From an uncultured Clostridia bacterium (lineage in GTDB: Bacteria; Bacillota; Clostridia; TANB77; CAG-508), in contig CALXUC010000011.1 of assembly GCA_944391575.1 (NCBI GenBank), forward strand, positions 1 through 45,984: DNA of 45,984 nt. Direction: 5' to 3'. A program made the position numbers and the translations under genes. The notes under the pieces are model-generated. The model had not been told where the DNA came from and made no database searches. It worked only from the letters and a program-made list of their open reading frames with translations. Position 1 is the first letter of the stretch. The number at the start of each line of letters is the position of its first letter. Shown piece by piece: positions 10 to 7,762 of this stretch.

Positions 10-111
10 GGACATTTTTACTAAAAATTCACTTTTAATTTTCATGATTTATACTAGGACATTTTTACTAAAAATTCCAAGTCATAAATGGGACATTTTC
101 ACTAAAAATTC
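10..111. repeat. Three copies of a 20-21 bp direct repeat
   Basis: The unit GGACATTTTTACTAAAAATT begins at 10, 57 and 91; the third copy differs by one base (TTTC for TTTT). Spacings are 47 and 34 bp. Multiple short direct repeats of this style, beginning GGGACATTTT, resemble the repeated terminal sequences of IS21-family elements, so this may be one end of an element lying to the left of the window. No IstA or IstB gene is visible here to confirm that. The last copy overlaps the stop codon of the HipA-like pseudogene. Confidence 0.55.
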
Positions 112-962
112 ACATATATATTTCTAATATTCGCTTTTTTCTTTCTAAAATATACACTCTTATTAGTTTTTTCATATCTTCACTTATTATTTCATTATCA
201 AATTCATTTAATATTTTACATATGTTTTGTTCATTAATATTATCTTTTATTTTTTCAATATAATTAATTGTCATATCATAAGCATGTTCTTTTAATTTTT
301 GTAATAATTCAAAATGCCTAATAGGTCTTTGATTTTCCCAACCTATTGCTGATTTAGATTTTGTATTAACTAAAGCTTCAAATTTCATTTTATCTTTAAA
401 AAATATTTCCAAATTATTATTATCTTCATATGAACACAATGAAGAACCATTATCATATAATGGACTCAATTTATAATTAAAAGATATATCTAACATCTCT
501 TTCTGAGTTTTATATATAGTTCCTTTTGCTATAATTGCTATATTACTATGGTGCCTATCACTATTTCCAATTAAAATATCAAAAATTATAATTTTATATA
601 GTTCATTAATGTTTATTATTCCATTCAAACTTTTCTGTAGCATTTGGACAGAATACTTTAAATTAGAATACGAATCTTCCAATTTATCCTTAATATAATA
701 TGGATAATTATTTTGAATAAAGGCTAAAAATTCTATTAAGTTTGATGACGAATCTTCAAGTATATTATAACTCATTGAGCCAATTCTTCCGTTTATATGT
801 ACCAATATCAACTTTAGCACATTCTACGTCTATTAACTTTCCAATTTCTGTAGCAAGTTTCTCAGCCCAATATTCTCCCGTAATTTTTCCATCTTTTTTC
901 ACCTTTGGAAATTTAAATAATCCTTTTTTATTTGTCTTCGGATTAATAAGCCATATTTTTTC
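110..962 (-). pseudogene. HipA-like kinase, frameshifted and N-terminally degraded
   Basis: HipA-family proteins are serine/threonine kinases, often the toxin of HipBA-type modules. The C-terminal 236 codons (110-820) carry the kinase catalytic signature IGNSDRHHSNI followed by SPLYDNGSSLC, the HipA_C metal-binding motifs. The upstream part of the protein (KIWLINPKTNKKGLFKFPKV ... CAKVDIGTY) is in another frame between about 795 and 962. The two frames join at an A run (792-794 on the plus strand), where one extra A breaks GTY/NGRIGSMSYNIL. An in-frame TAA at 963-965 cuts off anything further upstream, and no start codon with a ribosome site is visible. I see no HipB-like antitoxin beside it. 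Reading it as a dead gene is an inference; the frameshift alone could be a sequencing error, but the extra stop argues for decay. Confidence 0.7.
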
Positions 963-2230: not shown

Positions 2231-2234
2231 ACAT

Positions 2235-2281
2235 AAAAAGTATCGAAACCGATTATTAAGTCGGCAAAATCGATACTTTTT
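2235..2281. terminator. Strong hairpin downstream of the transposase
   Basis: AAAAAGTATCG pairs with CGATACTTTTT, and inside it CCGA pairs with TCGG. The stem is flanked by A and T runs, so it can act as an intrinsic terminator in both directions. It lies just outside the proposed IS right end and between convergent genes, the transposase (+) and the prepilin-like gene (-). Confidence 0.6.
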
Positions 2282-2391
2282 ATCAACTACTGGTATATAT
2301 TTTCGCTTCTAAATCCCTTGGTACTCTAAGGGAATATCAAAAGTGTCGGGTTGTAAGCTGGAGGCGCTCTATGCGACTTTTCACTGTCTTA

Positions 2392-3360
2392 CTATTTCGT
2401 CAATGTCCATGGACTTCCCTCGCTTCCATTTCCTGCTGTTGATGTGTTTATTTTGACTCCAGACTCTAGAATTATAACAGGGGCGAGGGCGCGCCTGTCG
2501 CTACCCCCATACTCGATGCCGCTGGAATACACGCTGAACAAGCGGTCGCTGCCGAGAGTGCCAGAGCTACGCACATTGCGCACGTAGAAGTCCGAATTGC
2601 TCGAACGAGCATTCACACGGCGAGACGCCAGCCAACTATAATCTGCCATTTTTTTACCGTCTGCTGTATTACTAAATGATTGTACTGCAGCTAAGTCGCT
2701 TTTATGATGGGTTTGTTCCAAATAAGCTCTTGTTCCACTTGGTATGCTTCCTCCTGAATAGAATTTTACATAGCTTGTACTTATTGTTGCATAGCTACTT
2801 GGATTACTTGGGTCACTTCCTAAATGTCTTGTACTATATCCATATGTTCCTTCTCCATATGGTATTGATGCGTTATTTAGTAATTGTATTGCTTGTGCAT
2901 ATTGTGTTTTTGCAGTTGATACTGTGCTTGAACCTAATGTGAATCTTGGTCCATTATAACATACTATTTCCATATGTCCATTATTATCAAAATCTAATAT
3001 TCTCCACTTATCGTATGTTTCTCCTTCATCAATAACATCATTACCATTACTATCTACTTGTACGCTGTAATTTACAAAATCGCCTACTATTGCTACTTCT
3101 TCTGGATCTACGCCTTCACTAACATTATTTCCTGTTAAATACTTATCTATTTCATTCATTAATGTTTGAATTTGATCAGCTTCTTCTCTTGAAGCATTTT
3201 CATACGTTTCTGCTGCTTGTCTTGTTTTACTAAATAATCCATCTCCTGTTACAGAACCTATTGCTACTGCTGCTAATATCAACATTATTACTACTGTAAT
3301 AATTAAAGCCACTAAAGTTATACCATTTTCCTTTTTGTACTTATTTTTTTCTTTTAACAT
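2392..3360 (-). CDS. Prepilin-like surface protein with a C-terminal DGR-type variable domain
   Basis: The N-terminus is a type IV prepilin-like leader: basic residues, then KENGITLVALIITVVIMLI, giving a G/I cleavage site and one hydrophobic helix. A short helical stretch (residues about 35-70) and a mid domain follow. The last ~80 residues hold WLASRRVNARSSNSDFYVR...RALAPVIILES, which looks like the C-type-lectin-like variable domain of targets diversified by retroelements. The DNA of that domain is sharply GC-rich: 60% GC over 2521-2580, in a gene that is otherwise AT-rich. A strong ribosome site (AGGGAGG) precedes the ATG. The protein is probably displayed on the cell surface and binds a variable ligand, but this is inference. 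No reverse transcriptase or accessory protein is in the window. An alternative is simple acquisition of a foreign GC-rich exon-like segment. Confidence 0.75.
   Translation of the reverse strand: MLKEKNKYKKENGITLVALIITVVIMLILAAVAIGSVTGDGLFSKTRQAAETYENASREEADQIQTLMNEIDKYLTGNNVSEGVDPEEVAIVGDFVNYSVQVDSNGNDVIDEGETYDKWRILDFDNNGHMEIVCYNGPRFTLGSSTVSTAKTQYAQAIQLLNNASIPYGEGTYGYSTRHLGSDPSNPSSYATISTSYVKFYSGGSIPSGTRAYLEQTHHKSDLAAVQSFSNTADGKKMADYSWLASRRVNARSSNSDFYVRNVRSSGTLGSDRLFSVYSSGIEYGGSDRRALAPVIILESGVKINTSTAGNGSEGSPWTLTK
2467..2637 (-). other. Candidate DGR variable region (VR)
   Basis: This is residues ~242-298 of the prepilin-like protein. GC content jumps at its 5' edge and many codons end in C or G (AGC, CGC, GAC, TTC), unlike the neighbouring codon use. 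This is the expected look of a VR copied from a GC-rich template repeat whose adenines are randomised. The invariant-looking end (ALAPVIILES) sits near the C-terminus, as in known VRs. No template repeat is recognisable in this window. Confidence 0.6.
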
Positions 3361-3553
3361 TAATTTTTCCTCCCTTTTATCTTTACTTTTATTATACCTC
3401 TTATTTTCTTTTTTGAGAACAAGCTGTTATGCGAGTTTTTATTTCGCTTATTTTTTCTCAAAGTCCTTGATACTATTAAGTTTAGAAGCTATATTTTATA
3501 GAATTTTTTTATTTTACTATGTATTATTTATTATTTTAAGTATAGCCAAACAA

Positions 3554-6459: not shown

Positions 6460-7762
6460 TTATTTTATGCAAAATGTTGCGTATAAAGGAACTGATTTTA
6501 TATTATTACTAAATCCAAAATTTTTTGTAGAAATTCTTATTGCGTATTTAGGCATATATCTTTTCATATATATATTCAAACTTTGACTTCCCACATTATC
6601 ATTTGCTTTTACTTCAATCGGTATTATACCATCATAATTATATAATATGAAATCAACTTCCGCCTGATTTCCAGATTCCCAGTATATTAATGGAATGTTG
6701 TTTGCTACTAACTGTGTAGCCACATAATTTTCAGCGATTATTCCTTTGTATTGTAAGAGTTTATCTAATATTATATCATTATATTTTACTTGTAACATAT
6801 TTAATAAAATTCCAACATCACTTAAATATAATTTAAAATAATCCTCTATGATAAATCCTAATGGCGGAATTTCAGGCTTTTTTAACACAGAACATTTATG
6901 TACCATTGTGCTTGAAAGCAACCAATCTAAAGCTGTTTCGTAATCTCTTTTTCGTGCACTCGATGATATTTTTCCGATATTGAAATTTATTACTCATATT
7001 TCCTAATTGTGAAGGAATTGATTTATATATAGCTTCTATTTTACTTGCTTCAAATTTATTTTTTACATATTTATTCATATCACTTAAATATGACTGATAA
7101 ATATCTTTTATAATAGTTGCATCGAATTTGAGAATATCTTTTTCATTATCGAGTAAATTTTTTACAGCTTCTGGCATCCCACCTACACATAGATATAATC
7201 TATATAAGTTTAATGCCTTTTCATGTAGAACTTGATCCATTGGAGTATTATTTTGATAACACTTTTTTATTTCCTCTACAAATGCTTTACTTCCACTTGC
7301 AATTAAAAATTCTTCAAAGTCCATTGGATACATATTTAACATTTTTACTTTTCCTACTGGAAAAGAAGAACGCATTCTTTTTAATTTTACACCTAACAAG
7401 CTTCCTGCACATATTATTTTAAAAGGTTCCTTACTCTCATTAAAATATTTTAATGAACTTATTATTTCTTCACTTTCTTGTATTTCATCAAAAAATATTA
7501 TAGTATTTTCTAAATCTATATCTTTATCCAAATATATTTTCATTCTATTAAATTTTTCAGCTGTGCTAATTTCTTCTTTAAATATTTTAACAATTTCAGG
7601 TTGTTCAAACAGATTTATATATACATATTTTTCAAATTCCTTTTGACAGAATTCTTCTATTATATATGTTTTGCCTATTTGCCTTGCACCTATTACCATT
7701 AATGGTTTTTGAATATTTGTATTTTTCCAGTTCAATAATTCACGGTATATCTTTCTTTCCAT
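6460..7762 (-). pseudogene. AAA_14/DUF4143-type ATPase, frameshifted
   Basis: A homologue of the intact 431-residue ATPase at 14793-16088. The N-terminal frame (6896-7762) has Walker A GARQIGKTY, Walker B IIFFDEIQESEE and the AGSLLGVKL motif. The C-terminal DUF4143 part, ending VEVKANDNVGSQSLN in its PD-(D/E)XK-like core (EVDFILYN...PIEVKAN), continues in another frame (6460-6921). The frames join at a five-A run (plus-strand T's 6969-6973), where one extra A turns QYRKISSSARKRDYETALDW out of frame. The function of this large family is not established; the members are predicted ATPases with a nuclease-like C-terminus. Programmed slippage at A5 or a sequencing error are alternatives to true inactivation. 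Confidence 0.8.

Follow-up and report, generated by a model that had tools for sequence, protein, structure and literature searches.

In this study, we analysed a window of 45,984 nucleotides (the whole stretch of DNA, from an uncultured Clostridia bacterium) that carries the gene of a 322-aa prepilin-like protein with a GC-rich 3′ block. The window is the complete contig C11 of an 84-contig genome assembly (1.84 Mb, 99.63% complete), and nothing is assembled to the left of its start. An initial annotation had proposed this block, placed at 2467-2637, as the variable region (VR) of a diversity-generating retroelement (DGR) lying elsewhere in the genome or beyond the left edge. The locus contains the following features:

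2392..3360, minus strand: gene of the 322-aa prepilin-like protein, the probable DGR target (open reading frame; homologues are targets of DGR cassettes in related genomes)
3259..3336, minus strand: prepilin-type N-terminal methylation motif and hydrophobic helix, residues 9-34 (PF07963, 19.8 bits, cut-off 21.2; motif kept in homologues)
2473..2634, minus strand: VR, 60.5% GC, hypervariable at NNY codons
2395..2472, minus strand: constant C-terminal tail 3′ of the VR, near-identical across copies (alignment of copies)
2358..2377, minus strand: left arm and loop of a hairpin present after the VR in the majority of sister copies; the right arm is missing here
2232..2357, strand not given: segment replacing the right arm of the hairpin, whose sole other genomic copy lies beside the frameshifted target on contig C81

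The target gene carries the VR close to its 3′ end, and the VR boundaries agree with the annotated block to within a few bases. The GC content of the VR compares with 32% in the remaining open reading frame and 25% in the window, consistent with the GC-rich block in an AT-rich gene that had been described. As to the prepilin leader, the motif is conserved in homologues, and the match of the N-terminus to PF07963 (E=5.5e-4) falls slightly below the family cut-off. Pfam and PDB sequence searches with the C-terminal half of the target matched no named domain, and two AlphaFold2 models of the variable domain, in which a C-type-lectin fold would be expected for a DGR target, were of low confidence (pLDDT 44.5 and 31.7), too poor for a fold search. 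Neither a reverse transcriptase (RT) nor a template repeat (TR) is present in the window, as had been stated. Elsewhere in the window we noted a 37-base repeat in three copies (GGACATTTTTACTAAAAATTC core) at the left contig end (7-124), a truncated HipA-C-like protein (110-820, minus strand; PF07804, 32.2 bits), and an AAA_14 ATPase gene (6460-7762, minus strand) that is seemingly split, perhaps by a frameshift, into the overlapping reading frames 6896-7762 and 6460-6921.

Nine further sites in the genome carry the VR block, with 77-97% identity and conserved flanks, a recurrence that, judged from the sequences, is not chance. The last 340 bases of the gene are found again twice each on contigs C82, C14 and C21 and once each on C36 and C81; on C47 only a 111-base 3′ end is present, and contig C10 terminates within the upstream part of one further target. 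Several of these copies sit at contig ends, so the assembly breaks inside these repeats. The target proteins range from the short type seen in the window up to fn3-bearing proteins of more than 900 aa, and eight of the nine complete VRs are open, the one on C81 being frameshifted.

Within the VR, an in-frame alignment of eight complete copies showed invariant blocks, between which the variation lies in paired columns, each pair preceding a C or T. Three or more bases occur in 40 columns, 37 of them at codon positions 1 or 2, and the pairwise difference per site is 0.70 at the hypervariable columns versus 0.11 elsewhere. Mutagenesis of AAC and AAT codons leaves just such NNY-codon variation. 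When a template was inferred from the seven other copies and compared with the window VR, 28/48 inferred adenines were changed versus 4/110 other sites (p=3.3e-14), a test that is partly circular for position, as variable columns were called adenine, while the left-out copy itself was unused; repeated across all eight copies, it gave p of 1e-8 or less each time. An independent test came from the real template of a sister genus (genome G011), located between avd and the RT, in which adenine occupies 35 of the 40 hypervariable columns (35/48 vs 5/104; p=2.2e-18); conversely, 44 of the 48 inferred adenines align to adenines there. The adenine-biased mismatches sought on the strength of the initial annotation were found, and the aligned copies show adenine-confined hypervariation even without the family's own template. 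From this pattern, the window gene is very probably the target of a DGR, as the initial annotation had proposed, and at least eight sister genes of the same gut bacterium appear to have been likewise rewritten.

A second DGR cassette in the same genome argues in the same direction. On contig C49 it comprises, in order, a target, a 145-aa MutS-I protein (MSL), a 114-aa Avd and a template. This template differs from its VR at 16 of 78 sites, all of them template adenines (16/29 A, 0/49 others), and is not the template from which the window family was written. The Avd (C49:8282-8620) matches the family Avd with E=1.4e-42 as well as PF22296 and the PHROG 'Avd protein of DGR' (E=2.7e-18). MSL is identified here by Pfam MutS_I; the main survey of DGRs reportedly names it as an accessory of these systems. 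Both genes are intact, and genome searches for either match C49 only. No RT follows the C49 template; a tRNA-like sequence, recognised by reading, stands there instead. DGR-like RT sequence is confined to one remnant in the genome, which lies downstream of a target on C14 and has lost an internal stretch and its second half. The one RVT_1 match of the genome, on C1, was rejected as a DGR RT on inspection, being LtrA-like, followed by a maturase-like reading frame and group-II-intron-like.

The genome-wide search for a template repeat matching the window VR returned only sister VRs, and that for a DGR RT only the deleted C14 remnant. Neither the window family's own template nor an intact DGR RT was present in the 84 contigs searched, which leaves their absence from the genome not proven. 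An intact cassette may be unassembled, since contigs break inside target repeats. Neither phage records searched with the inferred template nor GTDB genomes and IMG/VR searched with an exact pattern of the VR gave a match.

Complete systems are found in related genomes. Target, MSL, Avd, TR and RT are all present in G011, G014, G045, G173, G176 and others, with TR/VR mismatches at template adenines in 25/28, 21/21, 27/29, 25/26 and 21/21 cases, respectively; the RT of G011 is frameshifted, and the intact cassettes carry the RT motifs IGNMTSQ and YIRYQDDF/VRYQDDF. The high GC content of the VR is explained by these relatives, as their templates are GC-rich between their adenines. A strong DGR-RT match occurs in 38 of 195 family genomes (17 of 39 genera), and the target domain of the window in 16 of the 195. 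Three of these 16 (G118, G110 and G078) gave no DGR RT match even at 1e-5, G118 being assembled in about 20 contigs; orphaned sets of targets may be a recurring feature of this family. Scanning of the wider collection used an RT alignment, the distant-target alignment being too variable for this purpose. At 68 RT loci from named genomes, almost all of them of uncultured Clostridia, Avd lies nearby in 57, MSL in 60 and a prepilin-type reading frame in 35; the TR/VR pair counts of this survey include spurious pairs, and hence no pooled rate is given. On these sequence matches we take the RT lineage to be bacterial rather than phage, because the RT query against viral sequences matched only three distant viral contigs.

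Directly 3′ of the template on C49 (L042:8090-8160, minus strand), and at most of the relatives' DGR loci, there is a conserved element of 71 bases. Its outer stem reads UUCUAUA/UAUAGAA, and its inner stem covaries. In the inner stem, to which the covariation figures refer (the outer stems hardly vary), 99.8% of cells are paired, 24 cells have both sides changed versus 5.1 in shuffles, which ignore relatedness, and the covariation score is 0.238 as compared with 0.070 or less when partners are slid. A covariance model of the element matches the majority of survey loci, some of them outside the set from which the model was built, and a single place in the window's genome, on C49. An Rfam scan of the C49 stretch bearing the element matched no family. 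At one relative's locus (L132) there are three copies (372-441, 932-1001 and 3328-3397), perhaps reflecting several templates in one cassette. In phage BPP-1 the spacer is needed for cDNA priming. By position the element resembles this spacer, and it is a possible RT recognition or priming RNA. We tentatively propose, with slightly less than even confidence, that a Clostridia DGR clade with a MutS-I-like partner diversifies dispersed pilin-like tips in trans, and that the covarying template-RNA domain 3′ of the template serves RT recognition or priming.

Inverted repeats of the type AGAGCGCC-loop-GGTGCTCT stand directly after the stop codon at seven loci (C82b, C14b, C21a, C14a, C21b, C47 and C49). 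Extended stems fold in five of the six such loci with the window's VR type and in C49, while C47 forms the inner stem only; the hairpin of C36 is of a different type. In the window copy this hairpin or cruciform 3′ of the VR is incomplete, its right arm being lost, and it is lost at C81 too. An insertion sequence as the breaker of the hairpin was unsupported, as the replacing segment has one other copy and the adjoining reading frame has no Pfam match. Retrohoming in BPP-1 is efficient only when the 3′ hairpin is present, and a low residual activity is left without it (PMC3240598). The window gene was diversified, but with the right arm lost it may no longer be a good DGR substrate and may be frozen.

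The explanation that best fits these observations as a whole is that a DGR of this gut Clostridia genome has many dispersed targets, the window gene being a remote one; we hold this reading with high confidence. Against it stand the lack of the family template and of an intact DGR RT in an assembly rated 99.63% complete, the incomplete hairpin of the window copy, the partial circularity of the leave-one-out template, and models and sequence searches that did not establish a C-type-lectin fold. Pilin antigenic variation through gene conversion among paralogues, needing no retroelement, would account for the many paralogues and their near-identical flanks, both expected if copies exchange sequence. 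Conversion shuffles existing blocks, however; it would not generate columns with as many as four bases and confine them to NNY codons, and the variable columns would not match the adenines of another genus's template, and TR/VR pairs are present in this very genome, all of which makes it a very improbable account. We give marginally less credence still to the idea of an ordinary adhesin domain that was duplicated, owes its high GC content to horizontal transfer and was diversified by point mutation with positive selection. The sharp GC step within the gene and the predominance of amino acid changes among paralogue differences would fit such an origin, but selection on point mutations would not leave the 110 other sites almost untouched while 28 of 48 inferred adenines change, and the GC level is already explained by the relatives' templates.

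A closer contender, itself a sub-case of the favoured reading, shares the DGR origin and holds that the system is dead in this lineage, the RT having been lost and the repertoire frozen, subject to ordinary mutation and recombination only. The deletions in the C14 RT remnant, the C49 cassette without an RT, the hairpins lost in the window copy and at C81, the frameshifted C81 VR, and the other target-bearing relatives without an RT match (G118 with its few contigs included) all speak for decay. On the other hand, eight of nine complete VRs remain open, Avd and MSL on C49 are intact, and several contigs end in target repeats, at which assembly would lose a cassette. We see the two sides as evenly balanced; decay of the system and omission of an intact cassette from the assembly are about equally probable.

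If the window gene is indeed a remote DGR target, a template rich in AAY codons (TGGATGGCGTCTCGCAATGTGAATGCTAATTCG..., as reconstructed) would have been copied by a DGR RT misreading template adenines, and the corresponding 3′ portion of the gene would have been exchanged for the mutated cDNA. This would randomise residues close to the C-terminus of the pilin-like protein while leaving the frame constant. The family's template and RT would once have been in the genome, or would still lie in an unassembled stretch. The protein may be displayed on a pilus-like fibre and bind variable ligands, and the window copy is presumably now rewritten rarely or never.

Mutation systems of this kind are already known, and remote as well as orphaned targets have a precedent in Treponema denticola, in which several target genes lie distant from the core cassette and some isolates carry remnant targets with no complete DGR (PMC4891356). 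Our genome shares both traits. It differs in the prepilin-type N-termini of the targets, in having at least nine targets with one VR type, and in the MutS-I-like protein that the relatives' cassettes carry besides Avd. With the Bordetella phage BPP-1 system (mtd, avd, brt; PMC3240598) it has in common Avd, adenine-specific mismatches, a GC-rich hairpin 3′ of the VR and, in the relatives, a template upstream of the RT. In contrast to BPP-1, it resides in a bacterial chromosome, has many targets in trans and a pilin-like target, and its RT is missing from the assembly; moreover, the loops of its hairpins are unlike the GRNA loop seen in phage DGRs. A global survey described cellular targets that combine N-terminal membrane segments with a VR at the C-terminus and are enriched among Firmicutes and in the gut (PMC8144416), a description that suits our targets except that they lie away from the RT. 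That survey could not detect RT-distant targets, and pili are absent from its main text (PMC8144416).

In conclusion, an uncultured gut bacterium carries what is probably a large dispersed set of DGR targets, at least nine of one VR type and one of a second type. Surveys requiring an RT adjoining the target would miss such dispersed targets, and the conserved RNA element could serve as a marker for templates distant from RTs. The missing RT makes it a testable question whether repertoires outlive their mutator. Should the displayed product be pilin-like tips, gut Clostridia would gain a means of fast variation in adhesion or phage reception.
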